From Gordonia desulfuricans NBRC 100010 (GTDB lineage: Bacteria; Actinomycetota; Actinomycetes; Mycobacteriales; Mycobacteriaceae), in the NCBI RefSeq assembly GCF_001485495.1, contig NZ_BCNF01000044.1, positions 1-57,640 of the forward strand: a stretch of DNA of 57,640 bases. The letters run 5' to 3'. Under the pieces are notes generated by a model. The model worked only from the letters and a program-made list of their open reading frames with translations. It was not told the DNA's origin and did no database searches. The position numbers and the translations under genes were made by a program. Within the stretch, counting starts at the first letter, position 1; the number at the start of each line of letters is the position of its first letter. This document shows, in pieces, positions 24,697 through 57,640 of the stretch.

Positions 24697-24710
24697 TGAC
24701 GTCAACGTCA
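24697..24710. promoter_or_regulatory. MerR-type operator dyad
   Basis: TGACGT-CA-ACGTCA, a perfect 6-bp inverted repeat in the 89-nt space between the divergent MerR and MFS genes, as expected for MerR control of the MFS promoter. The exact -35/-10 boxes are not clear. Confidence 0.55.
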
Positions 24711-24728
24711 GCCTTTGACGATGGTGCC

Positions 24729-33484: not shown

Positions 33485-33640
33485 TCGTCCTGTGTACTCA
33501 CCGAGGTCGGGATTCGGGCGTGACCTGGCCCCGAACCATCGACGCGAAGAGTTCCTGGGCACGCACCCGATGCTATCGACTATCTTCACCGTCGTACGCG
33601 GCCTGCGTCTGGCGGCCGCGCCGGCCGAGAGGGGTGGCGG
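33485..33640. promoter_or_regulatory. Divergent promoter region of the Ter operon and AIM24 trio
   Basis: The 156-nt gap separates two coupled operons reading apart. It contains an AT-richer core around GATGCTATCGACTATCTTC (about 33568-33586) that could carry -10 elements for either strand. No exact operator is apparent. Confidence 0.4.
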
Positions 33641-34261: not shown

Positions 34262-34271
34262 GGCGACAACG

Positions 34272-35734: not shown

Positions 35735-35759
35735 GCCGCGCCCACATGTCGGCCGGTCG

Positions 35760-36275
35760 TCCTCGTTCCGTGGTCGGCTGTGGAGATCTCGACTCGTCTC
35801 GTCGCTGTGCGCGTGGCCGGTCTCAACCACCGTGTGGCCATTGGTGGTTGAGCACGACTCGACTTGTCGCTGCGCTCCGCGTCGGCTCAACTATCGTGTG
35901 GCCATTGGTGGTTGAGCAGGTCGTCCTCGCGCAGCGAGGCCGCCCGTCGTCGAAACCCGGTGAGATGTGCGTGTCCGCGACCACAGCCGAAGTGGTCACC
36001 CGCCGATGTTGGCCGGCGGAGGTTTCGACTCGACTTTGTCGCTGCGCTCCGCGTCGGCTCAACCATCGTGGACGGCGCGAGGCCGCCCGGCCGTCGAAAC
36101 CTCGGTCAGGTTGCGTTGGGAGGTGGCCACCGCCGAAGTGGTCACCCGCCGATGTCGACCGGCGGAGGTTTCGACTCGACTTGTCGCTGGGCGGATTCAA
36201 GGGGTCAGCCCTGCGCTCCGCGTCGGCTCAACCATCATGGACGGCGCGAGGCCACCCGGGCGTCGAAACCTCGGG
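35760..36275. repeat. Array of palindromic intergenic repeats, copies 2 and more
   Basis: The 35735-36371 gap has no gene. It holds several copies of the element seen at 4.9-5.1 kb: GTCTCAACCACCG... ...GGTGGTTGAGC at 35820-35852 and a second at 35885-35916. Two full units running GGAGGTTTCGACTCGACT... to ...CGTCGAAACCTCGG lie at 36018-36105 and 36166-36274. The two full units sit in a 146-nt direct repeat beginning CCGAAGTGGTCACC (35987 and 36133). The second unit has an extra ~24 nt (about 36189-36212) splitting CGCTGCGCTCCGCG. Confidence 0.75.
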
Positions 36276-36313
36276 CAGGTTGTGCCGGGACCCGACCGGC
36301 CGCGAGATGAACG

Positions 36314-36346
36314 AAACCCCCGGCACTCACCGAGTGCCGGGGGTTT
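36314..36346 (-). terminator. Strong hairpin terminator of the TerC-family gene
   Basis: Perfect 15-bp stem AAACCCCCGGCACTC / GAGTGCCGGGGGTTT with a 3-nt loop, 25 nt beyond the stop of the minus-strand gene. Ends in TTT on both strands. Confidence 0.85.
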
Positions 36347-36371
36347 GTCGTGTGCGATCGGATCTCCGCGA

Positions 36372-37544: not shown

Positions 37545-37714
37545 TGGGGCGTGGCCTTTCTGGAGATGCGGTGGGCGTTACGCCGTCGATCGCGGGGATC
37601 AGCCCCGCGGACCGCGCTGGGCGCGCCGCGCTGCGACGCCCGTCGCACACGAATGCCGCACTCGACGGTGATCGGGTGCGGCATCGGTGACGTTGTCGAT
37701 GACCGGGGAGGAGA

Positions 37715-38290
37715 TCAGACGTTGACGCCGTAGTCGCGGGCGATACCCGCGAGGCCCGACGCGTAGCCCTGACCGATGGCGCGGAACTTCCACTCGGCGC
37801 CGTTGCGGTAGATCTCGCCGAAGACCATCGCGGTCTCGGTGGAGGCGTCCTCGGACAGGTCGTAGCGGGCGATCTCGGCACCGTTGGCGCGGTTCACGAC
37901 GCGGATGTAGGCGTTGCGGACCTGGCCGAACGACTGCGAGCGGGCGTCGGCGTCGTAGATCGAGACCGGGAAGACGACGCTGTCGATCTCCGGCGGGGTG
38001 CCGGCCAGGTCGATGTTGATGACCTCGTCGTCGCCCTCGCCCTCACCGGTCAGGTTGTCACCGGTGTGCTCGATCGCGCCGTCCGGTGAGCGCAGGTTGT
38101 TGAAGAAGACGAAGTGCTGGTCGGAGAGCACCTTCTTGGTTGTGCCCAGTGCGATGGCGCTGGCATCCAGGTCGAAGTCGGTGCCGGTGGTGGTGCGGAC
38201 GTCCCAGCCCAGACCGACGGAAACCGCGGTCAGTCCCGGGGCCTCCTTGGTCAGCGAGACATTTCCGCCCTTGCTCAGGCTCACGCCCAT
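37715..38290 (-). CDS. terD: TerD calcium-binding stress protein
   Basis: 191-aa classical TerD/TerZ protein. It begins [20 protein letters not shown], followed by [24 protein letters not shown]. The acidic Ca2+ loop is [19 protein letters not shown] and the end [25 protein letters not shown]. The full set of acidic ligands is present. ATG at 38290 with ribosome site GAAAGG. It is upstream of the TerC-like gene on the same strand. TerD proteins are cytosolic and thought to link metal or redox stress to the membrane TerC component. Confidence 0.95.
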
Positions 38291-38435
38291 GGTTGTCGTG
38301 CCTTTCTGTCGTTGAACGGCCAAACGCCACTCTACGTGCGATGGCCCTCACTGTATGTGAAGTGCGAGGCGACCCACCCGGGTCTGGTCTGTCATCCGAA
38401 TGAACGTGGCATGTCCGATTTCGGTTCCCGGCCGG

Positions 38436-42604: not shown

Positions 42605-43114
42605 TCAGGTGTTGACGCCGAACGCCGAGGCGATCGACAACAGGCTCGCATGCCGTTCGGCGGTGGCCCGGAATCGCCACTTGCCGTCCTCGAGCACCAG
42701 GCGCGCGTAGACCAGCGCCCGGACATCGGGCTGCCCGGCCGACAGCGAGTACTCGGCGAGTGCGCCACAGGAGCTGTCGGCGGCGCTGATCGTGGCGGCC
42801 TCGAACCGGCCGAACACGTCGGCGTTGTCATAGACCGTCACCACGATGGCCACCTCGCGGGCCTTCGGTGGCAGGAGCAGGGTGTCGATGGTCAGGCTCT
42901 CGCGCGGGTCGTGGGCGTTCCCGCCGACCAGCCGGACCGCCTTCTCCGGGGTGTCGTGCTGGTTGAAGAAGGCGAAGTAGTCGTCGCTGAGCACTGTGCC
43001 GTCGTCGCCGAGGACGAGTGCGGCGAGGTCGAGGTCGATCCCGGCCGGCGTGCGTGCACCGTCCCACTCGATCGCGACGGTGATCACCGCCAGGCGATCC
43101 GGAGTCGTCGTCAT
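42605..43114 (-). CDS. Divergent TerD protein, last gene of tubulin/GTPase operon
   Basis: 169-aa TerD-domain protein. Fold motifs are VAIEWDGARTPAGIDLDLAALVLGDDG, SDDYFAFFNQ and the end LEDGKWRFRATAERHASLLSIASAFGVNT. The usual acidic Ca2+ loop is altered to VGGNAHDPRESLTIDTLLL, so calcium binding may be weaker or lost. It lies 13 nt after the NPF-rich membrane gene and is therefore the terminal cistron of an operon otherwise made of tubulin-like, GTPase and associated genes. It is a physical link between the two systems. Confidence 0.9.
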   Translation of the reverse strand: MTTTPDRLAVITVAIEWDGARTPAGIDLDLAALVLGDDGTVLSDDYFAFFNQHDTPEKAVRLVGGNAHDPRESLTIDTLLLPPKAREVAIVVTVYDNADVFGRFEAATISAADSSCGALAEYSLSAGQPDVRALVYARLVLEDGKWRFRATAERHASLLSIASAFGVNT

Positions 43115-43127
43115 CGTTGTCCTCTCG

Positions 43128-43841
43128 TCATCTCGCCGCCGGCCGCTGCTCGGTGTAGCGCCGGGACGGTGGCAACCACAATCCCGCCGTGGCGAGCAGT
43201 CCGCAGACCACGATCGCCATGACGACCGGTCCGGCCAGCAGACCGAACAGCGAGAGCACGGCGAGGAAGATCGCCGCATATCGCGGCCACCGGTGGCCCC
43301 GCCAGGTACCGATCGTAAACAGTGCGTACGACGCTGCGAAGATCACCCCGAGCGCGATGGTGGCACCGATCCCGATGGAGTGGCCGGTGTCGACCCAGGT
43401 CCCGGCCACCCGGTCGGCCGTACCGGTCGGATCGGCATCGAGGGCGGCATCTGCCGATGCGCGCACGCGCGACACCGCGATCACACCGAAGACCGTCTGC
43501 ACCACGACCAGCAGACCCGCGGCCGTGAGGGCGGCGGCGCTCAGCACGATCGCCGGTGGCCGCGGCGTGTGCACCGGTGCGGCGGCGGGGATGCCGAGAT
43601 GCCCGGGTGCCGGTGTGCCGAAGGTTGCCGGCCCGCCCGGGTGCGGGGGTGGTGTCCCGGCCCACGCCGGTACCGGTGCCGGCGGCTCGAACGGATTCGC
43701 CGGCGGTGACGATTCGGTGGGCGCCGCCGGGCGGAACAGGTCGTTCCCGCTCGGGTCGACGTTGCCCGGCGCAAATGGGTTGTGCCGGGCCGGGTTCGGT
43801 GAGAACGGGTCGGGTCCGAAGGGATTCGGGGGATGTGTCAC
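43128..43841 (-). CDS. NPF-rich four-helix membrane protein
   Basis: 237-aa membrane protein of unknown function. The first ~95 residues are a proline-rich, probably disordered tail with NPFGPDPFSPNP, HNPFAPGN and ANPFEPPAP blocks. Four predicted membrane helices follow between about 97 and 220 (first AIVLSAAALTAAGLLVVVQTVFGVIAV). The arrangement, tail in the cytosol and a small helical bundle, suggests an anchor that gathers soluble operon partners. The gene is 9 nt after the GTPase and 13 nt before TerD. Confidence 0.8.
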   Translation of the reverse strand: MTHPPNPFGPDPFSPNPARHNPFAPGNVDPSGNDLFRPAAPTESSPPANPFEPPAPVPAWAGTPPPHPGGPATFGTPAPGHLGIPAAAPVHTPRPPAIVLSAAALTAAGLLVVVQTVFGVIAVSRVRASADAALDADPTGTADRVAGTWVDTGHSIGIGATIALGVIFAASYALFTIGTWRGHRWPRYAAIFLAVLSLFGLLAGPVVMAIVVCGLLATAGLWLPPSRRYTEQRPAAR

Positions 43842-43850
43842 GGCATGCGC

Positions 43851-45008
43851 TCATTCCTGGAGCACGTGGCGATCGGCGAGTACCCAGCGGATGGGATCCA
43901 TGCAGCGGAAGGGGGAGATCCCGTTGGGGTGCAACCGTTCTCCCTCGGGTGACTCACCCAGGGCCGACACTGCGAAGAATCGGTGGTGGTACTGCTGCCC
44001 GGTCACCGGATCCACCATGTTGAGCAACGACGGCCCGGCCCGCAGGCGCTGGAGCAGACTGCGCACCTCGGCGTCGAGGAGCTGTCCGTCGGTCTCGTCG
44101 TAGCTCCGGTTGACCAGGCTCGGATCCCGGTTGAAGGCCGCACCCGGATGACCCATCACCTGACCCCAGGCACTGTTCTTGACCCGTGAGAGTTCCTGCA
44201 GTGCATCGAATTTCGACAGGATGACACCGAGCCGGGGGTTCCCGCCGGAGATCAGCCGCATCACCACCCGCAGGACGTCGCGCGGATCGCCGCCGACCCG
44301 TGAGGAATCGGGGATCAGATCGCGGAGCTGATCGGAGACGTCTTCCACCCGGAGGGGATCGAACAGGAAGAACACCGCGTCGGCGCGGGAGAAGAACTCC
44401 CAGGCAGGTCCGGCGACCTTGGCCTCCTCCAGATCCTCACCGGCCACGTCGCGGATGACGAGGAAACGCTTGAGGCCGTCCCACACACCGAGGTCGAAGA
44501 TCAGCGGGTGGTGGGCCTCCGACGCCGCACTCGGTGTCGCCTGCACGATCCCGCGTTCGACGAACAGCGGGGTCTCGTAGATCGCCGAATAGCGGTTCGC
44601 GGTCTCGTCGTCGGCGGGGATGACCTCACGGTGGAACCGTTCGGTGTACTGCTGCAGCTGTTTGATCAGGACTGCGATGAACACGGTCTTTCCCGTGTAC
44701 CGGGCCCCGGCCATGGCCACGCAGGTGGCCTCGCCGTACCGCCACATCGGTGGCAGCGTGTAGTGGCAGGTCACGCACACCTCGACGTGCCGGTGCACAT
44801 CGAAGCTGGCCGGAATCCAGTCGGGACTGTTCTCCGGGCGGTTCGCGGTGTGGACCTGCCCCGTCGACGTGGCGACCCCGGCGTAGGCGCTGGCGGTGGG
44901 GTTGTGCGCGACCGACTCCGGAGTGGCCTCGGTCCATGCGACCTTGTCGTGGGGCAATGCGGTGAAACACCGAGGGCATTTCACCGGTGCCGGGCCTGGT
45001 CCGGTCAT
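43851..45008 (-). CDS. Zinc-ribbon P-loop GTPase (DO-GTPase2-like)
   Basis: 385-aa protein. A zinc ribbon at the N terminus (C11-P-R-C14 and C78-V-T-C81) precedes a TRAFAC-type NTPase. The P-loop is AGARYTGKTVF with K107, the Walker B/G3 motif FLVIRDVAGED, and a possible G4 equivalent is ILSKFD. It resembles the double-GTPase 2 family described from bacterial conflict and stress operons. No membrane helix is visible. Its start overlaps the preceding vWA-like gene by 4 nt. The genes next to it (GAP1-like, vWA-like, tubulin-like) fit a nucleotide-switch apparatus; the role itself is inferred. Confidence 0.8.
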   Translation of the reverse strand: MTGPGPAPVKCPRCFTALPHDKVAWTEATPESVAHNPTASAYAGVATSTGQVHTANRPENSPDWIPASFDVHRHVEVCVTCHYTLPPMWRYGEATCVAMAGARYTGKTVFIAVLIKQLQQYTERFHREVIPADDETANRYSAIYETPLFVERGIVQATPSAASEAHHPLIFDLGVWDGLKRFLVIRDVAGEDLEEAKVAGPAWEFFSRADAVFFLFDPLRVEDVSDQLRDLIPDSSRVGGDPRDVLRVVMRLISGGNPRLGVILSKFDALQELSRVKNSAWGQVMGHPGAAFNRDPSLVNRSYDETDGQLLDAEVRSLLQRLRAGPSLLNMVDPVTGQQYHHRFFAVSALGESPEGERLHPNGISPFRCMDPIRWVLADRHVLQE

Positions 45009-46006
45009 CGTCGCACGCTCCCGAGTTCGGTCGCGGCGAGCAGTCCGGCGACGACGGTGGTGAGACGTTCGGGCGAGGCGATCAGTGCTTCCCGCGGGTC
45101 TCCACCGGGTTGTGGCGGTTCGATCTGCGCGCCGATGAAGCCGGGCCGTGTGGTGGCTGCCCGGGAAGGTGAGATGACCAGGGTGGCCTCACCCGAACGC
45201 GGGCCGGTGCCGATGGTCAGCCCGGTCCCGGGTCCGTCGGTGATGATCACGGTCAGCGACCTGCCCACGGCCGGGCTCGTCGGCCGCGAGCCCATCAGCA
45301 GGCCGAATCCGTTGCCGGGCGGCCGGGAGAGGAACTCGCCGAGATCTGCCGGGGCGATCTCTTCGGTGGCGCCGTCGGCCCGGGTACAGGCGATGGTCGG
45401 ACGGTCGCCGACGACAGCGGCGACGCCCGCGACGACGTCGCCGGCCGCGGCGACCGCACCCGAGGCGATCAGGGCCGCCATCGAGGCGGAGCTGTCGACG
45501 ATGCAGCGGACGGTCACCGCATCGGCCTCCGGGACCTGGTCGAGCCGGAGCACGCCGCGGCATGCGACACGCGCCTTGGCGGCGAGCGGTGGCAGCGGCG
45601 CGTCGGGAATGGTCAGACGGGTCTGGACGACGAGGGTGTCGGGGCCGTCGGGGGCGACCGTCGCCAGCTCGATGAAGCTCATCCCGGAGACGTCACGGGG
45701 GGTCAGCTGTGCGATATCGGCGCTCGGGTCGTTCCCGCCGTCGGGACCGAACGAGACGTGCACGACGGTGCCCTGGTCGAAGTTCGATCGCCCGGCGTCG
45801 GGTACGGCGACGATGGTCGTCTCCACGTCGACCCTGGGGAGGATCAGCAGTCCGGGGGACTGCTGGATGACGCGGGTGGAGGCGCCGTCGGCGGTCCGGG
45901 CGGCCAGTCGTACGCCCGTGGTGGGGGTGGCGGTCGCCAGCTGGACGGCCAACGGCCGGCGCGGCAGTGTTGCCGATGCCTTGCCGTCGAGAACGTAGGT
46001 GGCCAT
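45005..46006 (-). CDS. vWA-like metal-ion-site protein
   Basis: 333-aa protein. The second half (about 165-330) looks like a von Willebrand A domain with the MIDAS motif RCIVDSSASM (D171-S-S-A-S) and a further ITDGPGTG segment. The first ~160 residues are a beta-rich unknown domain (ARTADGASTRVIQQSPGLLILPRVDVETTI...). vWA domains use bound Mg2+ to grip acidic partners; in this operon it probably bridges the GTPase and GAP1-like proteins. It starts 1 nt after the GAP1-like stop. Confidence 0.75.
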   Translation of the reverse strand: MATYVLDGKASATLPRRPLAVQLATATPTTGVRLAARTADGASTRVIQQSPGLLILPRVDVETTIVAVPDAGRSNFDQGTVVHVSFGPDGGNDPSADIAQLTPRDVSGMSFIELATVAPDGPDTLVVQTRLTIPDAPLPPLAAKARVACRGVLRLDQVPEADAVTVRCIVDSSASMAALIASGAVAAAGDVVAGVAAVVGDRPTIACTRADGATEEIAPADLGEFLSRPPGNGFGLLMGSRPTSPAVGRSLTVIITDGPGTGLTIGTGPRSGEATLVISPSRAATTRPGFIGAQIEPPQPGGDPREALIASPERLTTVVAGLLAATELGSVRR

Positions 46007-46007
46007 G

Positions 46008-48656
46008 TCAGCGATCCTCTCGGGAGCGGAAGGGCCAGAGACCTGAGGTCTCCGGGCTGATGATCTTGAAGGACTCCAGCCATGCCGAGGCCTGTTTGGG
46101 ATGCTCGGCGAAGAACTCCTGGGCGTCGGCGGCGGTGACGGTGCGAAGCGCGGGCCAGACGGCATCACGCAGGGCGTCGGCGGTGGCCGGCCCGTGATAC
46201 CGCTGGTCCTGGACCGCCTCGTCCAGCAGTCGGTCGGCCCACGGCTCTTCGGTGGCGAGGTCGTCGGCGATGACGTGGTCGATCCTGATGTGCTCGAACT
46301 GCGACAGGTAGCTGCGCGCCGCGACCCAGCCGATGTCGAGCAGCTTGCGGCCGACGAGTATCCCCAGGAGATCGAGGAGTCTGTTGGCGGTGTCCGGCCG
46401 CTGGTGTGTGAGCCGCTCGTCGGCCGGACCCCCGGCGGTCGCGAACGCCGCCGCGCGGGACTGCGCGACGAGCATTCCGGCATACAGCATCCGGCGCAGA
46501 TCCTCGGCGAGCGGCCGGTTCCACCCGACCGGATCACCCATGCATACGCGGACGGTCTCGATGAGGGTCGGCGGGTCCGGGATGTTGCCCGGGTTCATGT
46601 GAAACCTGCGCAGACATGCCGCGGCGACCAGGGCATCCTGTGCGGCGTCCACACCGCGCGGTTGTCCGGCCAGGTCGTAGAGCATGTCCGGCGTGGGATT
46701 CTCGTAGAACACGTGGTCGTGCAGCATGGTCGGCGAGGTCCGACGGGGCTTCTCGTGGGTCCACATCAGCAGATCGGCGGCGGCCGGTGCCTCGAGGCGG
46801 GTCAGTTCGCCGGTGAGGTCCCTGGCCTGCGCGTCGTCGAGCGTCAGGTCCTCGAGGACGAACTCGATCGCCTGGGTGACGGCCGCCTGTCGCTGTTCGG
46901 TGCCCAGGTTCAGGGCATCGGGTGTGCCCGCCGGGGTCCCGCGCAGGCACGCTGCTACCGCGATCGGGTACAGGCGCCGATCGGCATTGGATGGATTCGC
47001 CGGCGGTTCCAGGGGTCGACCGGAACCGTCGTCGAAGACCCAGTTCCACAACGGGCTGCGAAAGGCCTCGAGGTGCACACGATTCCAGCGGAGAAGACTG
47101 GGGCGCACGAACTTGGCTCGGACCCCCAACGGAATGAACACCAGATTCGACTGTTGGTTCGTATCCCAGATCACCGACGGGTCGATTCTCTCCCAGAGAC
47201 GGGTGAGTTCGGCCTCGACCTCGACGAACTCGCTGTCATGACGCGCGAGCTGATCGAGCAGGATGGTGAGCCGGATGACGAAGATGGCGGTTCCGGTGGG
47301 CTCGTGGTCGACGGATTTCTCGGCATCGGCGAGCAGGGACGTGATCGTGGCACGTACCCCACCGAGGTCGACTGCCTGGACGGCCGGCAGCTTGCCGAAC
47401 GAACTGGTGTGAAGCCACTGCCTGTCGTCGAGCGCGGCCACCAGGAACCGGGACGCGGGGATGCCCGGATCGGACTGGCCGGCGACGGCCTTGCGCAGCT
47501 GGGCAAGTGCCTCATCCGGGGTGATCGGGAACTGCGTGCGGGCCCGGGCGATCAACGCCGCGGCCTCGGGAAGGGCTGCGGTGTCGGCCGGTTCGTCGTG
47601 GGCGACCACGCGGAGGGCATCGTCGTGGAACTCGTCGAGTGCGGGATTCTCGGCGATCGCCACCGCCAACGGCCATGCCCCCGAGGTGGATTGCGCACCG
47701 AGTGCGAGTCCCACCTCGTCGCGGCGCAGGAGCACGGCGACGGCGGTGTCCTCGTCTTCGAGAACACCCTCGACAAAGGTGGACAGCGCCGAGACCGGCA
47801 CCTCGCCACGTGCGACGCGATGCACCGATCCCACATCTCCGAGCAGCGGCGCCTCGTTCTCGTCGATCACCAGCGCACCACCGAAGGCCGTGCGCTCGTC
47901 GACACTGTCGGCGGGGACGGCGATCAGATGTGTCCCGCGGTCGATGTGGGCCGGGATCTGATCCGGGCGATCATGGGTGGTCCATCCGAGTCGTCCCGCG
48001 AGTTCCGGGGGCAGCAGGTAGGACACGGCGGCGATCCACGCGGCCGATGCGTCGTGCGAGTGCGTCAGCAGCACCACCGCCGGGCCGTCCTCGAGGGCAT
48101 GGGTGACGGCGTCGATCAGGACGCGGAAGACGCCCTGCCGGTCGACGGCATCGTCGGTCACGAACCGGACGACCGACGAGAGTGTGATGATGCTGCCGGG
48201 AGCGGGGATGTCGGCGGTACCGAGTCGGGCCGCGGCCACGTTCTCGGCGCGGTACGGCCGCAGCCAGTCCGGTGAACCCCAGAGCCGGATCGGCCGATAC
48301 CCGGGCCGGTGGGCACGGCTGCGGTCGACGGCGATGTGGGCGAACACATTTCCGGGCCTGCCGGTGGCATCCGGGCCGGCGGCCGTCGTATGCCAGAACA
48401 CCCCGGCGTCGTCCATCCGCGCGTACGCCAGCCGGCTCGGGCGCTCGGCGATCTGTGCCTCGGTGGGGAAGTCGGGCAGACGGGGATCGAGGTCGAACCG
48501 CGTGACGACCCGGCCCACCAGCGTGTCGCGCTGGGCCGTGGTCAGATCCCCCCGCACCTCTTTGACCTGCCATCCGCCGCGCCCGGCGCCGTCGTCGAAC
48601 GAGGTGTAGGTCAGTTGCGCGTACTGCGACGCTGCCGGCGGCGGCGCAGCCGTCAT
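46008..48656 (-). CDS. GTPase-associated protein (GAP1-like)
   Basis: 882-aa soluble multi-domain protein. The first ~200 residues (YAQLTYTSFDDGAGRGGWQVKEV..., GVFWHTTAAGPDATGRPGNVFAHIAVD) are typical of the N-terminal GAP1-type domain that accompanies DO-GTPases in predicted prokaryotic conflict/stress operons. The next ~250 residues form a second alpha/beta domain, and the C-terminal ~400 residues are largely helical with no motif I know. The ATG at 48656 overlaps the preceding stop. It probably acts with the GTPase encoded two genes downstream. The family name is from general resemblance, not a search. Confidence 0.78.
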   Translation of the reverse strand: MTAAPPPAASQYAQLTYTSFDDGAGRGGWQVKEVRGDLTTAQRDTLVGRVVTRFDLDPRLPDFPTEAQIAERPSRLAYARMDDAGVFWHTTAAGPDATGRPGNVFAHIAVDRSRAHRPGYRPIRLWGSPDWLRPYRAENVAAARLGTADIPAPGSIITLSSVVRFVTDDAVDRQGVFRVLIDAVTHALEDGPAVVLLTHSHDASAAWIAAVSYLLPPELAGRLGWTTHDRPDQIPAHIDRGTHLIAVPADSVDERTAFGGALVIDENEAPLLGDVGSVHRVARGEVPVSALSTFVEGVLEDEDTAVAVLLRRDEVGLALGAQSTSGAWPLAVAIAENPALDEFHDDALRVVAHDEPADTAALPEAAALIARARTQFPITPDEALAQLRKAVAGQSDPGIPASRFLVAALDDRQWLHTSSFGKLPAVQAVDLGGVRATITSLLADAEKSVDHEPTGTAIFVIRLTILLDQLARHDSEFVEVEAELTRLWERIDPSVIWDTNQQSNLVFIPLGVRAKFVRPSLLRWNRVHLEAFRSPLWNWVFDDGSGRPLEPPANPSNADRRLYPIAVAACLRGTPAGTPDALNLGTEQRQAAVTQAIEFVLEDLTLDDAQARDLTGELTRLEAPAAADLLMWTHEKPRRTSPTMLHDHVFYENPTPDMLYDLAGQPRGVDAAQDALVAAACLRRFHMNPGNIPDPPTLIETVRVCMGDPVGWNRPLAEDLRRMLYAGMLVAQSRAAAFATAGGPADERLTHQRPDTANRLLDLLGILVGRKLLDIGWVAARSYLSQFEHIRIDHVIADDLATEEPWADRLLDEAVQDQRYHGPATADALRDAVWPALRTVTAADAQEFFAEHPKQASAWLESFKIISPETSGLWPFRSREDR

Positions 48657-51088
48657 CCCTGGTCCCCCTGCGGCGTGGGCGCCCGGAACTGCCAGAGCTG
48701 CTGCATCGGCGGGTCGGTGAGCGCCACACGCGGTGTGCGGTCCGCGGTGTCGTCGACGAACACCCGCACGAATGCGAACTCGTTGCCGAGATCGACATAG
48801 AAGTCGGTGCGGTGCACCCCGGGTTGGATGTGGGGGAGCTCGCAGTGCGGAGTCCGTTGACCACGGACGAGGAACTGCAGATTGTGTCCGTCCCGGAGAT
48901 CCAGCGGCAGTCGTTCGCGGTTTGCCACCAGCACCAGCGCCGGCGGGTTCGCGAGCTCGCTCTCCGAGCCGACCCACAGCCGGAGCACACGTGATCGGGG
49001 GTTGTCGGTCGGCACCGATTCGAACCGGTACTCCATCCGGGTCAGGCCCGGATAGGCCAGTGTGGCGATCTCACCCCGGATCTGCTCGCCGCGCGAGTAG
49101 GCGACCGGTACCAGACAGACGGTACATCCGTTGGCACCCAACCTTTGTGGCATGATGATCGCGCCGTCTCGCCGGTGCGTCGACGCCGACACCACGGCGG
49201 ATGGCCGCGACTGGGAGCAGATCTCTTCGGGGCTCAGCGTCGTCGAACCGACGAAGACCTGCACCTCGGCCGCACCGGCCGGCCAGCCGAAGGTGATCAG
49301 TTCGGTGTTGAATCGTTCGATGATCCGCGGTTTGATCACCGCGGGCAGCGGACGTGTCTGCACCTGGGTGGTGCCGATCCGGACACGTCCGTTGGCGAGG
49401 GTCACCGGGGTCAGGTAGGCGCGTTCCCAGTCCGTCGGCCACAGCACCCGCGTCATCTGGGAGGTGGTGGGATCGAGTGCGGTGACCGGGTCCTTGATCC
49501 GTGATTCCTCGGTGAAGCCCTGGACCGTGATCGCCGAGGCGTCACGGTCCTCGTTCTCCAGGCCCGCCGGCGGCGGTGAGGCGAACCGGTGGATCTGGAC
49601 CTGCTGACCGGATTCCGGTGTACTCCAGCGCAAGTCGAAGGTGCTGCCGGATTCGGACATGGTCACGGTCAGATCGGTGACCGGATCGAGGTCGACGGTG
49701 ACCAGGACGTCCTTCTTGACCTGGCGGGACAGTCGCGCCGAGTCGTTAACCATCACCTCGGCCTGGACCGCATACAGGAATCGTCTTCCCCGGGTGGCGC
49801 CGGAATCGACGAATCCGGTGAGATTCGGCTGATCGGAACAGATCTGGTTGCTCGGGTTCGCGACCGGCGGTCCGCTGCCCTCGAGTGGGATGCGGTACAC
49901 CCGGACGCTGCGGGTGCCCGGATGGACCGACCACTCGCCGATGACGCGTCCGGACTCCTCGGACAGACGCATCCCCTCCACCGGGCTGACCTCTTCGCCC
50001 TCGGCCCACTTCACCGGTTGTGCTGCGCGGGCGGAGCTTTCGTCGACGCCGACGTGACACCAGACCTGGAACACGCGGACGGCGGAGGCCAGGAACCGGC
50101 CGTCGTCGAGCGCTGCGGTGGTGGTGACGCCGATCAGCTCTCCGGACTCGGGCTTGTACGGTGCGACATCGTCACCGGAGACGACGCGGTACAGCACGGT
50201 CTCCCGGCCTTCGGTCGGCCAGGATTCCCAACTCAGCTGGACGCCGTCTCCTGCGGTACCCACCTTGATCCGCCCGGGTTCGACATCTGTTTCGGGATAG
50301 TCGTATTCGCAGAAGTCGCCATGCGACCAGGTGCGTCCGGTACCGGTGCCGGTGGCCGACCCGGCCTGGCCGGTGGTGTCGGCGGTGGTGTGGGCGGAGG
50401 TGGTGTCTGCGGCTGGGGCGCTGGATGCCGCCGGTGAACTCGGTGCGGTTGTCGGTGTCGGTGTCGGTTGTGGCGCGGCCGGGGTGACCGGGGGCCGCGG
50501 CGTGCGACGGGGCTCCGGGGTCACCGTCTCGGGCTTGTCCGTGGGCTCGTCGGCGAACGCGGCGATCACCGTGGCGATCTCCGGGGCCAGGGCGGCTGCG
50601 GCACCGGTCAGCTTCCGCCGGATCTGGTTGACGCTGGTCTGATTGCGTCGCAGCAGGTTTCGGAGGGTGACGTCCTTGATGGAGTCGGCCCCCTCGACCC
50701 CGTTGGCGATCTGGGCGGTGCGCCACTCGATGAGGGCCCGCAGGATCCGGGCCTGCGGGTCGTCGGTCGCGGTGGCGGCGGCCGGCGGATCGTCGCGGCG
50801 CGGTGCCGGTTCGGGATCCGGCACATCGGGGGCGGCGCGCAGGTGTTCGGGCATGTGCGCGACGGCGATCTCGGGGGTGACCCCCAGGGTCGTCTGGGCC
50901 AGGAGGTGATCGATGGTCTCCCGGTACGCCGTCTCCAGCGGGCTGAGCGGACCGTCGGCCCACTGCTGCGGGATCCGGGAGATCTCCACGAGCCGCGGCG
51001 GTTCGGGAGTCGGGTAACCCTGGTCGGTTGCCCATCCACGCCAGACCTGCAGGGTGGCCAGGTATGTCTCGGGGCTGATGCTCGTCAT
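48653..51088 (-). CDS. Fn3-like multi-domain protein with helical N-terminal domain
   Basis: 811-aa protein. Residues about 1-75 and 110-185 form two small helical domains (the second with RNLLRRNQTSVNQIRRKL, perhaps an oligomerisation or nucleic-acid module). A Pro/Thr/Ala-rich linker about 185-265 follows. The remaining ~540 residues are a string of beta-sandwich repeats resembling fibronectin type III (VQLSWESWPTEGRETVLYRVV, VTDLTVTMSESGSTFDLRWSTPES). No signal peptide, so it is probably cytosolic, acting as a scaffold. ATG at 51088, 1 nt after the upstream stop. Exact family uncertain. Confidence 0.72.
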   Translation of the reverse strand: MTSISPETYLATLQVWRGWATDQGYPTPEPPRLVEISRIPQQWADGPLSPLETAYRETIDHLLAQTTLGVTPEIAVAHMPEHLRAAPDVPDPEPAPRRDDPPAAATATDDPQARILRALIEWRTAQIANGVEGADSIKDVTLRNLLRRNQTSVNQIRRKLTGAAAALAPEIATVIAAFADEPTDKPETVTPEPRRTPRPPVTPAAPQPTPTPTTAPSSPAASSAPAADTTSAHTTADTTGQAGSATGTGTGRTWSHGDFCEYDYPETDVEPGRIKVGTAGDGVQLSWESWPTEGRETVLYRVVSGDDVAPYKPESGELIGVTTTAALDDGRFLASAVRVFQVWCHVGVDESSARAAQPVKWAEGEEVSPVEGMRLSEESGRVIGEWSVHPGTRSVRVYRIPLEGSGPPVANPSNQICSDQPNLTGFVDSGATRGRRFLYAVQAEVMVNDSARLSRQVKKDVLVTVDLDPVTDLTVTMSESGSTFDLRWSTPESGQQVQIHRFASPPPAGLENEDRDASAITVQGFTEESRIKDPVTALDPTTSQMTRVLWPTDWERAYLTPVTLANGRVRIGTTQVQTRPLPAVIKPRIIERFNTELITFGWPAGAAEVQVFVGSTTLSPEEICSQSRPSAVVSASTHRRDGAIIMPQRLGANGCTVCLVPVAYSRGEQIRGEIATLAYPGLTRMEYRFESVPTDNPRSRVLRLWVGSESELANPPALVLVANRERLPLDLRDGHNLQFLVRGQRTPHCELPHIQPGVHRTDFYVDLGNEFAFVRVFVDDTADRTPRVALTDPPMQQLWQFRAPTPQGDQG

Positions 51089-51089
51089 G

Positions 51090-53795
51090 TCAGAACTCGA
51101 ATCCTCGGCCGGGTTCGGGTGCCCGGAACTCGTCCGGTCGGGTCGCCGGACCAGGGGCCCCGGTGGGGTCCTGGCCGTTCCGGGAGACACCGAACCCGGA
51201 TTCGATCGGCTGTGGCGCCGCCCAGTCGGTGTCGGCCCGCGGGGTCTGGTCGCCCACGGTCACCAGATGGTCTGCGGTGAAAGCGTCGCTGAGCTGGGTT
51301 GCAGCGCAGATGATCCCGAGTCCCCACCGCTGGGCGCGCCGGTAGTCGATGTCGACCTTGGCGACGGCGTCCATGATCGCACCGTCGGTGAGGAGGTCGG
51401 TCGAGAACGACCCGCTCGGTTCGGTCGGCCGATCGATCCCGCCGAGGAACTCGTCGATGGTGGTCTCGACCCGATCGATCGGTTGCACCGAGGCGAGCAG
51501 CCGCGGGACGAGGGTGCCCATCGGGCCGGCGAGCAGGTCGAGCGCATGCTGCCACACGACGTCGGCTCCCGAGGACGTGACGGCGCCGGTGTGGACCGCC
51601 GTCGAGAACCGGTCGAGCTGTGAGCCCGAGCGCCGGCCACGTTCGGACCACAGCGGCGACGCACCGACACCGAGGTCACGTGCCCCGGGCTGCGGTGGTG
51701 CGGCCCGCGTGATGAGGTCCTCCCACGAGCGGGTGAGCCACCCCGGCCGGAACAGATCCCGCCGAAGATGTCCTGCGATGGTGGCGATCTCGGCCTCGGC
51801 AGGCCGTGCGACACCCACCGAGGTGGACATCGGCATTCCACGCGAGATGTGCAGGACCTGCTCCGGGCGATGCAGGTCGGGTCCGAGCGGTGCCGCGAGG
51901 AAGCCGCCGATGACGCGGCTCCAGGCCAGGAACTGTCCGTAGGCCTGCGACAGACGACGCAGATCGTTGAGCGCCGCCCGCAGGTTCTGCAGATCGATCT
52001 CGTGCTCGGCGATGACGGATTTCCGTTGGTGCAGTAGGGCGAACAGTCGTCGTTGGGTACTGATGAACGCGCAGCCGAGCGCCACCACGAGCACGATCAG
52101 CGTGCCGACGATCACCGTCGGTGCCACCCACCAGTCCACGATCTCCGCGATCGCCAGATAGGTGAAGACGCCGGTCAGGATCAGCCACAGCACCACCGCC
52201 ACCTGCACCCAGCGGGCCAGTCCGAGATTGCGTGATCCCGGGTCCGGCGGGGTCTGCGCGTTCATGAGTTTGGCGAACAGCCCCTGGACCTCGGACCAGC
52301 AGCCGGCGAACGACTTCGCGAGCTGGTCGCCGACGGCGGCACCGAAACTGCCGGAGTGCCGGCGCTGCCAGTCGTTCAACGCCGACAAGGTGGAACCGGC
52401 GGCGAGGCCGTTGTGCGGATCGCGCTGGAGATCGCCCAGGCGGCGGCGCAGATCCTCGACGCCCAGGGCGTCCACGGCGTCGACCCCGTCGATCTCGGTC
52501 GCGGCACCGATCACACCCGGGATCGCGGTGAACCGTTCGCCCGGGCCGGGGACCACACCGGCGGCCTCGTGCACGATCCCGACCGCGGCCCCCACCGGGA
52601 CCGGGGGCAGATCCGACGTGCGGTTGCCCGCATCGGCGAGGGTCATCGACGCCCGGGCGTAGTCCTGCCACAACCCCGACAGGTCGGTACCCGCGTCATG
52701 CACGGGGCCGGTGCCGGTGATCAGGCCGCCCAGGTGATCGGAGGCCTCGCCGATGTCGGCCCATCCGGCGTGCTGGCCGTTGGCCCGGCGGCCGTGGGCG
52801 ACCACCTCGTAGGCCGCGGGGGCGTCGGTGAAGACGGCCTGCTGGACGCCGATGGCGACGCTGCGGGCCAACCCGCCGGCGACCTTGTGGTACCAGGCCG
52901 CCGGGGCGTTCTTGATCGACGCCCAGAGGAAGCCGAGGAACATCTTGATGGCCGCCCAGGCCCCGATGGTCTCGACCGTCTGGGTGGGGTAGGACAGGCG
53001 CGTGCCACGCAGGACGGCGCTGTGCTTGGTCCACAGCGTCGAGGCCATCGTCCGGCCCGCCAGCCCGGCATCCTGCAGGTACACGACCTGCATGCGCTGA
53101 TCGCTGGGCAGCGGCAGACGCCCGTCCTGCGCCAGGATCTCCGCGCGCAGGGACGACTCGACGTCGGCGGTCTCGAGTTTCCGGTAGAACGACCGGGCCA
53201 GCCGGATCACCTTGCCGGGCAACACCGGCGCGTCGTCGAGCGGGGCGTGCTCGATCCCGCTCCACAGTCCGGTCAGTCCCGCGATCACCGGACCGGCGAA
53301 GCGGCCGTGATCGATGGACGTGGGCTCGGTGGGGGTGGGGATGCGGCCGAACTCGGGGCCGCGTGAATCCTCCGGCGATACGACGACGTTGTGCCAGCCC
53401 TCGACCGACAGTGCCGTGGACGGTCCGTCGATCCCGGCGGGGCCGGTGAGCGCCACCCGGATTCGGACCACCTGTGCGGCCCCGGTGGCCGAGTGGAGCG
53501 CTCGGGTCACACCGAGTTCGGCGCCCACCGGAAGCCGGTGGGTGCCCTCGGCGATCGGCACGACCGAACAGATCCGCAGCAGCGTGATCCGCCGTGTGGT
53601 GACCAGTTCGGTCAGTGCGAGGTCGTGGGCGATCCCGCGCTCGACGACGACGAGTGACTGCACCGGCGTGGCGGTGTCGGGGTCGGTGACCCAGGCGAAC
53701 TGGTCCACGAGACCGGCCGCCGACAGGTCGGTGAGTGCGGCCAGCACGCCGTCGGCGGGGCCGCTGGGGGCGAGGAACACCGTCAGTGCGGTCAT
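51090..53795 (-). CDS. Large membrane protein of the tubulin-like operon
   Basis: 901-aa protein of unknown family. It has an alpha/beta N-terminal region (MTALTVFLAPSGPADGVLAALTDL) and a long middle part with an amphipathic stretch near 275-300 (WAAIKMFLGFLWASIKNAP). One clear pair of membrane helices lies at about 529-549 and 556-577 (WVQVAVVLWLILTGVFTYLAI, VIVGTLIVLVVALGCAFI). Helical coiled-coil residues follow (HQRKSVIAEHEIDLQNLRAALNDLRRLS) with a soluble C-terminal part. The ATG at 53795 shares one base with the tubulin-like stop (TGATG). It would place the apparatus at the membrane. Confidence 0.72.
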   Translation of the reverse strand: MTALTVFLAPSGPADGVLAALTDLSAAGLVDQFAWVTDPDTATPVQSLVVVERGIAHDLALTELVTTRRITLLRICSVVPIAEGTHRLPVGAELGVTRALHSATGAAQVVRIRVALTGPAGIDGPSTALSVEGWHNVVVSPEDSRGPEFGRIPTPTEPTSIDHGRFAGPVIAGLTGLWSGIEHAPLDDAPVLPGKVIRLARSFYRKLETADVESSLRAEILAQDGRLPLPSDQRMQVVYLQDAGLAGRTMASTLWTKHSAVLRGTRLSYPTQTVETIGAWAAIKMFLGFLWASIKNAPAAWYHKVAGGLARSVAIGVQQAVFTDAPAAYEVVAHGRRANGQHAGWADIGEASDHLGGLITGTGPVHDAGTDLSGLWQDYARASMTLADAGNRTSDLPPVPVGAAVGIVHEAAGVVPGPGERFTAIPGVIGAATEIDGVDAVDALGVEDLRRRLGDLQRDPHNGLAAGSTLSALNDWQRRHSGSFGAAVGDQLAKSFAGCWSEVQGLFAKLMNAQTPPDPGSRNLGLARWVQVAVVLWLILTGVFTYLAIAEIVDWWVAPTVIVGTLIVLVVALGCAFISTQRRLFALLHQRKSVIAEHEIDLQNLRAALNDLRRLSQAYGQFLAWSRVIGGFLAAPLGPDLHRPEQVLHISRGMPMSTSVGVARPAEAEIATIAGHLRRDLFRPGWLTRSWEDLITRAAPPQPGARDLGVGASPLWSERGRRSGSQLDRFSTAVHTGAVTSSGADVVWQHALDLLAGPMGTLVPRLLASVQPIDRVETTIDEFLGGIDRPTEPSGSFSTDLLTDGAIMDAVAKVDIDYRRAQRWGLGIICAATQLSDAFTADHLVTVGDQTPRADTDWAAPQPIESGFGVSRNGQDPTGAPGPATRPDEFRAPEPGRGFEF

Positions 53796-56700
53796 CAGAA
53801 GATGCTCCCGCCGGATGCCGAACCGAAGTCCATCGACGGTGCCGACCAATCGTTCTCACGTCCCTGTACGGGTACCGGGCTCGGTGTGTCCGGGGCGATC
53901 GGCCGTTCGGCGTCGGCCACCGCCGCCGGGATCAGCGCCAGCAGTTCGCTGGTGACCCAGTACACGTCGGGGGCGAGGTCGCGGAAGATCGGGGTCTTCG
54001 ACGCCTGCTCGCGCACCGAGATCACCGAGAAGACACCACCGCCCGGGGCCGGTGGGTGACCGTCGGTGCCGCCGTCGCCGGGGCGCATGAAGTGTGCACC
54101 CACAAAGGTGCGGTACTCGGTCAGGTATGCGGTGAGTCGTTCTGCGCGCGTGGCGATGTCGGAGCCCGGCCCGGTGTCGGCGATCACCGAGGCGATACCG
54201 GTGCCGAGATCGCCGGAGCGCAACCAGCCGGCGATGTTGCGGCGGGCGGCGAGCTGGTCCCGATCCATTCCGGAGGTGGTGTTCTGTGCGGCCGCGTCGT
54301 AGACCCGGCGCAGCGCCCGGTACGGATGCATCGAACTCATCGCCGGCGGCTGGTGCGAGTTGGCGATGGCCAGCAGCACGGATTCGAGAATCGCCGGGAG
54401 CCAGTCGTATTCGGCGAGGAACTCCGACGGCGGGGTGAGCAGCTGGGCGGGGAACGGCAACCACCGTTTGTTCTCCCCGTCCCAGACCTGCGCGGCCTGC
54501 GTGAACGGCGCCTCGGGAACCGAGACCAGGCCGAGGGCGCGGCCGAGGATCCATCCGCCGACCATCGCCCGGCGTTCGTCGACGTGCATCGGCAGGCTGG
54601 CCGCGAGCGGGCGGGCCCGACGATGGGTCCAGAACGCCTTGCGTTCGGCCGCCGACGATTCCAGCCACTGGCGGGACGCCGCCTCGACCACGGCGTCGTA
54701 GGCCAGCGGCGAGTAGTTCGGGTACGAGCCGAAGATGTCGATGCGCTTGATGTTGGCCTCGTCGGTGAGCGCGCCCTCGAGTGCGCGGACGCTGTTCTTG
54801 TCGACGCGCATCTGCTGCCCGAGGGTGGTCGACAGTTCGTCGGCGACGGTCAGGCTGTGGAAGGGCACCGCGGAGAACTTGTAGCGGTACATCATCTCGG
54901 AGACGCCGTGGATGGCCTGCATGGCGTTCTCGTTCACGCTGGCCAGCGGCCGGGCCAGGCTCACCGCCTCGCCGAATCGGAGCAGGAGGTCGCGTCGGCG
55001 GGCGGCCAGCTCGGACTCGGCCACCTGGGCGTCGCTGCTGGTCCGGCCGGTCACGTACTCGCGCAACGAGACCGAGCAGAAGCGGTGGAAGGCCTCGCCC
55101 GGGCGGGCCACGAATTCCCGTGCGCGCGAGAGAAGTTCGCCTGGCCGGATGTGGATGTCGAAGGTGGCGGGGGAGGCGATGAGGGTCTCGCCGCTCTCCG
55201 GGTGACGCGGGAAGGCCCGCGAGACCCATGCGGAGGTGCGCTCCACCGTCGGCTGGACGTCACCGGGTGCGCGGGTGCCGCCGACCGTGGTCCAGTGGCC
55301 GGTGATCACCTGGTGGGCGGCGCGGCCCACCGCCATGCGGAAGGTGTGCGGATCAGAGGTCTGGGCGCCGATCGAGCTGGGGAGGTCGATCTCGTAGCGC
55401 TGCTTGAACTCTCCCGACCGGGTCAGCATCACCTCGTTGTCGGCCTCGGAGAAGCGTTCGGCGACGCGCTCGTCGTTGTCCGACGGCCAGGCCGCGTACT
55501 CGGTGGTCTGCAGGTGGGCGAGGCCGGTCTCCCGGCGGGGTGCCGCCGCGGCCTGACGCAGCAGCGTCTGCGACTCGTTGAGGCCGGTGATCAGCGGGTC
55601 GAGGATCTCCCCGACGATCGCACTCGCGGCGTCGGCGACCCGGGTCGCCAGGGAGGCGTAGATCTCCTGCTGCACCGGACCGCGCAGACCGTCGAGGACC
55701 TGCTCACTCACCCCGGCCGGGTTGGTCAACGTGCCCTTGAGTGATGCGAGGGTCCGCGCGACCTCGGGTGACACCTCGACGACGTCGCCCGGCGCATACC
55801 CCGACAGCTGCTGGGATTCGGGCAGGATCACATCCGACATGAGGCGCGAGACCCGTTTCACCAGGCCGGTCGCATAGGGGAGGCCCAGCATGGCGATCGC
55901 CTCGGTGGTGACGAAGGTGAGTGCGTTGGCGAAGTTCTGATGCCAGGTGTAGGCCACCGAGTAGGCGGTGGTGGCGGCGGCTCCCTTGACGGTGTCGCGT
56001 TGCTCGCCGAGCACCCGGTAGACCGAGGCCGCCCACTGTTCGCCGTTGACGCCGGGGTTCTGGTCGATGCGCGGGCGGACCGCGGCGTTGACGATCTGCA
56101 TCCCGTGCGTGCTCACCTGCTCGTGCGACAGTACGGCCGGCGACGCCAGCCACTGGCCGACGAGGTTGCCGCCGGCACCCTCGGGCAGACCGAGCTGCCG
56201 GCAGATGTTGCCCCACTGGTTGTCCAGGATCGCGTTGACCTGTTCCTCGTCGGAGGCGCTGTTGCCGGGCTGGAGGTGGCCGTGCAGGAGCTTGTCGGCG
56301 CTGGAGCGGGCCAGTCGCTGGGCGGCGTACTCGGCGTAGCGGTCGCGTCCCATCGACAGGCTGGCGTAACCGAAAGTGCCCCAAGGGATGTTGTTCCACT
56401 GCCGGTTGCCCCATCCGAGGAACTCCAGCGAACCCTGGTCGCCGACACCGTTGGTGAGGTCCCACTCGACGAACTGCTGCAGTGCCGGACCCGACATGGT
56501 CAGGCCGGCCAGACCGCGCCCGAGCCCGCGGTACACGGCGTTGGGTGTGCCGTCGCCGAAGACGGTGCGCTGGGCGCCGACGTATCGGCCCACCGGGAAG
56601 ACCCGGGCGAACGGGATCCGTTCGCCCTCACCGCGTTCGTAGCCGAGGGCCCGCAACAGTGCGACGTCGGATTCGCGGGCCGAACCGGTCTGTGCGGCGA

Positions 56701-57415
56701 CGATTTCGCCGAGCATGGCCAGCGCGTTGGCGCGGGTACCGGTGACCGCGGAAGAGGGCAACGTCTCGAAGATGTCGGGGGTCACCATGAACACGGCCAT
56801 CAGGCGCGGGTCGACTCCCTGGACCAGGGTGAGGATGCGGCAGACGTCGAGTGCCATCGACGCACCGGCGCCACCGGCCATCGAGGAGACGACCAGCACG
56901 ATCGGCTGGTCGTCGGGACTGTAGGTCCCGGCGCCGGGGATCGACAGCGACCGCATCTCGGTGTCGGTGGAGTTGAGGTACAGGCGATCCCAGGCCTGCT
57001 GCAGGGCGTCGCGGACCTGCCCCACCCGGCTGAGGGTGATCATGCGACCCAGCGACCGGTACTGGCCGGCTCCGGTGGACAGCGGGGTGTACACCGAGTC
57101 CGGGTCGCGCGGGGCCCAGGTGGCGATCCCGTCGACCGCCTGGTTGGTGGCCAGGCGCTGGGTCATCGCGTTGTCGAGGACCTTGTAGCTGTCGCTCTCC
57201 GGGCCGGTGCCGACGTAGACGCCACCCTGGTCGCGGACGTTGCCGACACCTTCGACCCGGGACGGCGAGGTGGGTACGTCGAGATGGACGAACTGCCATC
57301 CGGCGGGCAACCGATGGATGCCGTGGCCGGCCAGGTCGGAGCGCAGCTGGTCCATCATGTAGGCCAGTGCGGCACCGCCGGATCCGCCGCAGCCGACGAT
57401 CAACAGTCGTTTCAT
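53795..57415 (-). CDS. Bacterial tubulin-like protein
   Basis: 1206-aa protein with an N-terminal tubulin/FtsZ-like nucleotide-binding domain: MKRLLIVGCGGSGGAALAYM (first glycine loop, G8-G14) and the tubulin signature counterpart SSMAGGAGASMALDVCRIL at about residues 176-190. Domain length before the signature and the following VDPRLMAVFMVTPDIFETLPS match the bacterial tubulin-like family. The large C-terminal part (about 500-1206) is helical and specific to the family. FtsZ-like polymerisation is possible but not shown. It heads a nearly gapless operon with GTPase, GAP1-like and TerD genes; upstream, an NPF-rich gene enters from outside the window. Confidence 0.85.
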   Translation of the reverse strand: MKRLLIVGCGGSGGAALAYMMDQLRSDLAGHGIHRLPAGWQFVHLDVPTSPSRVEGVGNVRDQGGVYVGTGPESDSYKVLDNAMTQRLATNQAVDGIATWAPRDPDSVYTPLSTGAGQYRSLGRMITLSRVGQVRDALQQAWDRLYLNSTDTEMRSLSIPGAGTYSPDDQPIVLVVSSMAGGAGASMALDVCRILTLVQGVDPRLMAVFMVTPDIFETLPSSAVTGTRANALAMLGEIVAAQTGSARESDVALLRALGYERGEGERIPFARVFPVGRYVGAQRTVFGDGTPNAVYRGLGRGLAGLTMSGPALQQFVEWDLTNGVGDQGSLEFLGWGNRQWNNIPWGTFGYASLSMGRDRYAEYAAQRLARSSADKLLHGHLQPGNSASDEEQVNAILDNQWGNICRQLGLPEGAGGNLVGQWLASPAVLSHEQVSTHGMQIVNAAVRPRIDQNPGVNGEQWAASVYRVLGEQRDTVKGAAATTAYSVAYTWHQNFANALTFVTTEAIAMLGLPYATGLVKRVSRLMSDVILPESQQLSGYAPGDVVEVSPEVARTLASLKGTLTNPAGVSEQVLDGLRGPVQQEIYASLATRVADAASAIVGEILDPLITGLNESQTLLRQAAAAPRRETGLAHLQTTEYAAWPSDNDERVAERFSEADNEVMLTRSGEFKQRYEIDLPSSIGAQTSDPHTFRMAVGRAAHQVITGHWTTVGGTRAPGDVQPTVERTSAWVSRAFPRHPESGETLIASPATFDIHIRPGELLSRAREFVARPGEAFHRFCSVSLREYVTGRTSSDAQVAESELAARRRDLLLRFGEAVSLARPLASVNENAMQAIHGVSEMMYRYKFSAVPFHSLTVADELSTTLGQQMRVDKNSVRALEGALTDEANIKRIDIFGSYPNYSPLAYDAVVEAASRQWLESSAAERKAFWTHRRARPLAASLPMHVDERRAMVGGWILGRALGLVSVPEAPFTQAAQVWDGENKRWLPFPAQLLTPPSEFLAEYDWLPAILESVLLAIANSHQPPAMSSMHPYRALRRVYDAAAQNTTSGMDRDQLAARRNIAGWLRSGDLGTGIASVIADTGPGSDIATRAERLTAYLTEYRTFVGAHFMRPGDGGTDGHPPAPGGGVFSVISVREQASKTPIFRDLAPDVYWVTSELLALIPAAVADAERPIAPDTPSPVPVQGRENDWSAPSMDFGSASGGSIF

Positions 57416-57464
57416 AACGTGGTGTCCTTACCTCGACGCGGGGTCGTCTCAGGGGATGGAGGTC

Positions 57465-57640
57465 TCAGGGCTGGAAGGGGTTTCCGCCACGAGGCGGTGC
57501 CGCCGGCGGCGGAGACGGCGGCTGCCCGCCGGCACCCGGTCCGAACGGGTTGCCGCCCGCCGGTGGCGCACCGCCCGGTGCCCGCGATCCGAAGGGGCCG
57601 TTCGGGACCGGTCCACCGCCGGGGGCGGAGTTCGCGGGGC
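57465..57640 (-). CDS. Pro/Gly-rich NPF-motif protein (partial, runs off the window)
   Basis: C-terminal 57 codons of a gene entering from the right edge on the minus strand, stop at 57465-57467. The visible part is wholly low-complexity, Pro/Gly/Ala-rich with GPFGSRAPGG, GNPFGPGAGG and GGNPFQP at the very end. It closely resembles in style the N-terminal tail of the membrane protein at 43128-43841. The start and any structured domain lie outside the window. Confidence 0.7.
   Translation of the reverse strand, partial: PANSAPGGGPVPNGPFGSRAPGGAPPAGGNPFGPGAGGQPPSPPPAAPPRGGNPFQP

Follow-up and report, generated by a model that had tools for sequence, protein, structure and literature searches.

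Two published studies describe the systems closest to the locus reported here. Makarova and Koonin (2010, PMC2875224) predicted a role in membrane remodelling for FtsZl1 operons, which have genes for vWA proteins and GTPases; TerD is absent from the main text of that paper. Kaur (2020, PMC7159879) described DO-GTPase/GAP1 systems, in which, according to the available text, tubulin genes of firmicutes and actinobacteria form the centre of about 52% of the GAP1-N2 neighbourhoods, and the actinobacterial tubulin theme has two further proteins, one Fn3-HRDC and one membrane vWA-Fn3; TerD is named there once, for VMAP systems. A DO-GTPase is also named once in the accessible part of a paper published in 2024 on phage shock proteins. 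The locus analysed in this study is an operon on the minus strand (57640 to 42605) of a 57,640-nt stretch of DNA, referred to below as the window, which is contig NZ_BCNF01000044.1 of Gordonia desulfuricans NBRC 100010. It encodes a tubulin-like protein (TUB), a large membrane protein (MEM), an Fn3-like protein, a GAP1 protein, a TerF-like vWA protein, a DO-GTPase, a small membrane protein, and a TerD, preceded by a gene designated vtm. With the FtsZl1 operons, as far as their published description is available, the operon shares membrane proteins, a Tubulin_2 protein, and genes for a vWA protein and a GTPase; GAP1, the TerF-like protein, and TerD are additional, and MEM is proposed to be a second, degenerate tubulin. 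With the theme of Kaur (2020, PMC7159879) it shares a zinc-ribbon DO-GTPase, GAP1-N2, a single tubulin whose C-terminal region is long, and probably an Fn3 protein and a membrane vWA protein; the available text on that theme mentions neither TerF- nor TerD-like proteins and describes no NPF tags, no matching tails, and no membrane protein resembling tubulin. The core of the operon, a combination of tubulin, GTPase, GAP1, vWA, and Fn3 proteins, had already been predicted in these papers of 2010 and 2020, whose operon types overlap. What is added here is the link to Ter proteins, the possible second tubulin, and the matching C-terminal tails of TUB and MEM in other lineages. Ter systems with TerD, TerF, TerC, and StiP were reportedly described by Anantharaman et al. 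in 2012. The window shares with them a TerD gene, genes for TerC, StiP-PELOTA, and a C-C bond lyase nearby, and probably a TerD domain and a vWA domain in one chain (TerF); unlike in those systems, its TerF-like protein and operonic TerD are divergent, an acidic loop is lost, and both genes lie inside a tubulin/GTPase operon.

The operon is of the actinobacterial GAP1-N2/DO-GTPase type with the tubulin theme, and is composed of a membrane-tubulin module (vtm-tub-mem), a GTPase module (fn3-gap1-gtp), and a derived TerD. A partial first gene and eight complete genes are read on the same strand, with a 49-nt gap before the tubulin-like gene and successive gaps of -1, +1, -4, +1, -4, +9, and +13 nt from TUB to TerD. 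Third-position GC was 0.79-0.90 across the eight complete frames. These gene calls agreed with an initial annotation made from the letters alone, in which the same nine genes, joined at -4 to +13 nt, had been given and profile searches and a gene-neighbourhood comparison had been proposed as checks. Both were conducted. The profiles of Tubulin_2, DO-GTPase2, GAP1-N2/GAP1-M, and TerD all matched, and the assignment of the DO-GTPase and GAP1 was supported by matches to PF19993, PF20013, and PF20014 above their cut-offs. The view of the locus as one with membrane parts and two NTPases was likewise right. The Pfam scan gave no convincing match for MEM, the Fn3-like protein, or the vWA-like protein of the window, and promoter and terminator scans gave results near chance.

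The tubulin profile A1 was searched in the genus, a family sample, and a class sample, and matched 14/59, 49/401, and 10/394 genomes, respectively, the window's own genome included. The window and 62 loci were then annotated with iterated profiles. Among these 63 loci the tub component was found in 63, mem in 62, vtm, fn3, and gap1 in 58 each, and vwa and gtp in 57 each, and the components found were collinear on one strand in 55 of the 57 GTPase-bearing loci; therefore, the association of the genes is not a matter of chance. In the two exceptions (L044 and L046) the vwa matches are on the other strand, and a single frame holds fn3 and gtp. The initial annotation had named, as an outcome that would count against it, that homologues of these genes usually occur apart. 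The core was found together; only TerD departs from it, since outside the genus it follows the GTPase in just 8/44 loci. The locus counts leave aside L019 (DnaK-like genes), L026 (weak match with a stop), L029-L032 (no tubulin), L003 (the one weak locus from a GAP1 profile search of genome contigs, not used further), and L037-L043, L045, and L047-L066, which are GAP1-N2 loci without a tubulin match in the examined stretch; five of the 46 match places from one homologue search also fall outside the set. Corynebacterium glutamicum, a named control, had a GAP1-N2 match.

The two modules were also observed separately. Within the examined stretches, vtm, tub, and mem occurred without matches to the other components in L107, L108, and L111, from other families of the class, and fn3, gap1, and gtp occurred without tub, mem, vtm, or vwa matches (genus profiles) in L029-L032, from four g23 genomes; gap1 and gtp are adjacent in L029 and L031, the two inspected. 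Loci with both modules were the only ones in which a TerF-like gene was seen (55/57 of them), which suggests that its product couples the modules.

The GTPase of the window (DO-GTPase2, 385 amino acids, 43851..45008) matched PF19993 at 1.2e-7 (32.1 bits against a cut-off of 27) and contains two CxxC pairs, GARYTGKT, DVAGE, and SKFD. Walker A and [DE]xxGE patterns were present in 57/57 loci and two CxxC in 44/57. GAP1 (882 amino acids, 46008..48656) showed GAP1-N2 (PF20013, 1.2e-23) and GAP1-M (PF20014, 2.3e-13); a GAP1-C domain was not found in it. The Fn3-like scaffold (811 amino acids, 48653..51088) keeps a conserved position in the operon. Its Fn3/HRDC label is taken from the available text of Kaur (2020, PMC7159879); no fn3 or HRDC family was found by Pfam in 21 Fn3-like proteins at E 0.01, and no clear sequence match in the PDB.

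TerD (169 amino acids, 42605..43114), the last cistron, matched PF02342 at 3.1e-25 (89.2 bits against a cut-off of 25.3). A TerD gene followed the GTPase gene on the same strand in 21/57 loci, namely 13/13 in the genus (the operons with an available 3' end; the genus also has L018, which breaks off ahead of the GTPase), 1/3 in g23, 5/10 in g31 (where the matches sit in frames of about 450 residues), 1/1 in g122, 1/1 in g110 (found by an iterated profile, with no PF02342 match), and 0/29 in the others. In six genomes (G784, G005, G008, G015, G795, and G758) the assembly had no PF02342 match besides the operonic TerD. Within the genus the operon is inserted at infA/rpsM in some species and at TerC/TerD in others, and its own TerD is kept each time. 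Because TerD is retained at differing sites and is the only one found in some genomes, it belongs to the unit in the genus, as the initial annotation had proposed. The gene downstream of TerD, an alcohol dehydrogenase relative, was matched in none of the first 11 loci compared, where other genes follow TerD; hence, TerD is likely the end of the unit. A homologue search with the window's TerD returned only the window's own protein.

The GDNxTGxGxGDDE loop of TerD binds calcium. This acidic loop was lacking, in alignments judged by eye, in the window's TerD and in 20 of the 21 operonic TerDs (L027 keeps it), and was present in 11/11 non-operonic TerDs, which had been chosen for high score. From the loss of the loop we infer that the operonic TerD would serve as an adaptor rather than as a calcium sensor.

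A chromosomal Ter locus, overlooked in the initial annotation, lies in the same window (22898-38323) and contains a double TerD, a MerR gene, StiP-PELOTA, a C-C bond lyase, TerC/DUF475, and a canonical TerD 4.3 kb from the operon. In 42 tubulin genomes, 26 operons lay within 20 kb of a TerD not their own as against 1.50 expected, and 20 within 5 kb as against 0.73, the expectation being that of random placement with an operon length of about 13.7 kb and rounded genome sizes; no P value is given because the genomes are related and do not represent 42 independent events. By genus, the 20-kb count was 7/14 in g1, 1/3 in g23, 3/3 in g219, 9/10 in g31, 5/6 in g25, and 1/3 in g29, with none in g28, g224, or g122. 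The 42 genomes leave aside 13 g27 and six class-level genomes (no TerD found in either set), G965 (fragmented), and the genomes of L044 and L046.

The vWA protein of the operon (333 amino acids, 45005..46006) has a predicted TerD-fold domain at residues 2-132 and a vWA domain with the metal ion-dependent adhesion site (MIDAS) DSSAS at 138-333, and is probably a divergent TerF, as judged from models together with weak sequence matches. Its AlphaFold2 model had a pLDDT of 90.7, and structure comparison (VIA) supported the fold of both halves, the modelled N-terminal domain resembling solved TerD structures and the vWA domain being probably of the TerF type. PF10138 was the sole family to recur, matching 14/33 TerF-like members (best 0.00089), the window's protein not among them; in 10/15 genomes, not including the window's own, a PF10138 match below the cut-off lay at the TerF-like gene. 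Comparison by hhalign of the TerF-like profile with a reference of two TerF sequences (from 2/9 TerF loci passing the filter) gave 4.7e-6, and the controls gave 0.049 or worse. The initial annotation, which labelled this protein vWA-like, had missed its probable TerF nature.

TUB (1206 amino acids, 53795..57415) matched PF13809 (Tubulin_2) at 5.3e-47, and is the only tubulin of the operon detected by Pfam; it contains the loops GCGGSGG and GGAGAS, and its tail ends in GGSIF. MEM (901 amino acids, 51090..53795), described in the initial annotation as a two-helix membrane protein, is indeed a membrane protein, and the description missed that it may be a second, degenerate tubulin. In the model of MEM, a transmembrane hairpin on long helices (about 484-634) interrupts a tubulin-like fold without GTP loops, and the tail (851-901), ending in GRGFEF, is disordered. 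When the model was compared with 996 chains, tubulin and FtsZ occupied rows 1-3 with modest Z scores. The T1 and T4 GTP-loop patterns were found in 0/62 MEM proteins. On this moderate, model-based evidence, MEM may be a tubulin-like protein anchored in the membrane, its GTP loops having been lost. Relationship of the hairpin to the mitochondrial calcium uniporter was also considered, and was dropped since the profile match (E 0.08) was not significant.

TUB and MEM further resemble each other at their C-termini. The last residue was hydrophobic in TUB of 56/63 loci and in MEM of 53/62; for the five other proteins the number was 6 to 23 of 57 or 58. The last six residues were then compared in 28 representatives, selected greedily below 70% TUB identity, with 20,000 permutations. 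The TUB-MEM score was 11.8 within a locus versus -1.7 between loci (z 9.5), a value reached by 0/20,000 permutations. A clear signal came from the last six positions alone, with z 2.2 and 2.4 at positions 18 and 19 and z 0.5 to 1.4 for windows shifted by six or twelve residues. The coupling was observed in g27 (12 loci, z 6.0), outside the family (8 loci, z 4.7), and in 16 representatives without g27 (z 5.0). The tails match in L107, L108, and L111, the loci in which only vtm, tub, and mem were matched in the stretch, which points to a reader of the tails inside the trio or elsewhere in the cell; in L109, with the same three components and a short MEM frame, they do not match. Twenty other protein pairs served as controls. 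The fn3-gtp pair gave z 3.4 to 4.7, because fn3 and gtp are one frame in L044 and L046, and z 1.4 without these two loci; gap1-vwa gave z 3.4 at one threshold only. A weaker coupling, with a matched score below zero, was also seen between the fn3 and vwa tails (21 representative loci, z 3.1 without L044 and L046).

The window contains only the 3' end of vtm (57465..57640, stop at 57467-57465), as the gene is cut by the end of the contig at 57640; the translation is a Pro/Gly-rich tail with NPFGP and NPFQP. The relatives of vtm contain a vWA domain, a beta-rich part, one transmembrane helix, and a long part, judged cytosolic because basic residues follow the helix, before a Pro/Gly-rich tail of NPF type. 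VWA_2 was matched, and a transmembrane helix found, in both relatives scanned (L017 and L018). An [NDS]PF motif was present in the last 40 residues of vtm in 43/58 loci (NPF or DPF in 42), of TUB in 6/63, of MEM in 13/62, and of the GTPase in 25/57 (all SPF), and in none of the Fn3, GAP1, and vWA proteins. Similar motifs occur in the membrane proteins encoded after the GTPase. That of the window (237 amino acids, 43128..43841) carries four [ND]PF ahead of its first transmembrane helix, and such motifs were found in 19/72 transmembrane proteins within 3.5 kb after the GTPase versus 8/252 other transmembrane proteins (P 2.5e-8, an optimistic value because the sequences are related); five of the eight others come from L080 or L095, near the operon system. 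Four tandem NPF-tagged membrane proteins with similar C-termini follow the GTPase in L028 (1677-5743), and six frames with [ND]PF were seen in L080. In some g27 loci, the vtm tail seems by eye to have other repeats in common with the membrane protein encoded next.

The genes after the GTPase differ from lineage to lineage. Downstream of the operon in L082 and L086, genes resemble DUF262/GmrSD proteins by eye. The infA and rpsM-rpoA ribosomal cluster directly adjoins the operon in L016, L020, L024, and L025 and represents a repeated insertion site.

Taken together, these observations can be read as a membrane-anchored, GTPase-timed tubulin scaffold, a reading to which we give about even chances. 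In this scheme, the vWA domain of the transmembrane vtm protein would read a state outside the membrane, MEM would seed or cap TUB assembly at the membrane, and the DO-GTPase and GAP1 would set the timing of the switch. The TerF-like MIDAS protein would join the GTPase switch to the tubulin scaffold, and TerD and the NPF-tagged membrane proteins would be lineage-specific adaptors or outputs. Its likely use would be to respond, as a self-contained unit, to phage attack or to stress on the envelope. The more specific proposal that MEM is a membrane-embedded pseudo-tubulin nucleating or capping TUB filaments, that the pair ancestrally bound one receptor through a shared six-residue C-terminal tag, and that the TerF-like protein couples the scaffold to the DO-GTPase switch, is put forward tentatively, at somewhat short of even confidence.

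Several results weigh against this scaffold. Tail coupling was absent in the window's own clade (z -0.9 in the 14 loci of the genus and z -1.4 in 16 family representatives without g27), so the tails of TUB and MEM there have parted or were never alike. Profile comparison of TUB with MEM gave no sequence homology, the Z scores of the structural match to tubulin and FtsZ were modest, and Foldseek returned for the MEM model nothing below 0.001 in the PDB and nothing in BFVD. For the TerF-like protein, Foldseek likewise gave nothing below 0.001 in the PDB, the window's member has no Pfam match, and the N-terminal half gave P 0.089 against the TerF sequences. The module argument rests on three loci for vtm-tub-mem and four for fn3-gap1-gtp, and L044 and L046 have both modules with no TerF-like match on that strand. 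The rarity of TerD after the GTPase outside the genus (0/13 in g27) also counts here. Scans with PADLOC and NCBIfam gave no match at 0.01 and no fitting PADLOC model, and no experimental work on this operon type or any homologue was found in the open-licence literature. On the last point the initial annotation, which knew of no experimental description of this combination of proteins, was borne out.

The DO-GTPase/GAP1 family assignment also fits an anti-phage conflict system as proposed by Kaur (2020, PMC7159879), with the GTPase and GAP1 as a threshold switch, Fn3 sensing, tubulin multimers and membrane proteins containing the infection, and TerD as an interchangeable effector. Its patchy presence in the genus (14/59 genomes) and the variable genes after the GTPase would suit such a system, as would the divergence of GAP1 (34-40% identity to the window over most of the length) and operonic TerD (35-38%) far beyond that of TUB (58-73%) within the genus. 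However, PADLOC found no match and the genes of most constant order include TerF-like stress proteins, and we regard this explanation as rather unlikely. If instead the operon were a machine that remodels the membrane or maintains the envelope (Makarova and Koonin 2010) and had since joined the Ter stress response as a branch, TerF and TerD would pass the Ter signal to the tubulin scaffold. The TerF-like member, the proximity of 26/42 operons to another TerD (1.50 expected), and the presence in the window of StiP-PELOTA, TerC, TerD, and the C-C bond lyase are in keeping with this, whereas the six genomes with the operon and no other TerD found, the 13 g27 genomes with the operon and no TerD found, the acidic loop lost from the operonic TerD, and the relatedness of the 42 genomes are not; we consider it possible but doubtful. 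That same proximity could also have made TerD a chance neighbour, acquired as the operon often inserts near Ter loci, and 36/57 loci have no TerD right after the GTPase. Nevertheless, TerD accompanies the operon when this is inserted at infA/rpsM and when no other TerD is found in the genome, and the loop is absent in 20/21 operonic TerDs, which makes a chance association very improbable.

Through the shared proteins, the bacterial Ter systems and the tubulin/DO-GTPase operons, both of them unexplained, become linked, and each gains a testable partner. To our knowledge, no tubulin-family fold opened by a membrane hairpin has been seen earlier, and MEM would be the first if it is a pseudo-tubulin. 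The matched six-residue tails of other lineages offer a cheap handle on the receptor. If the pseudo-tubulin proposal is true, MEM would explain how the tubulin scaffold stays at the membrane.

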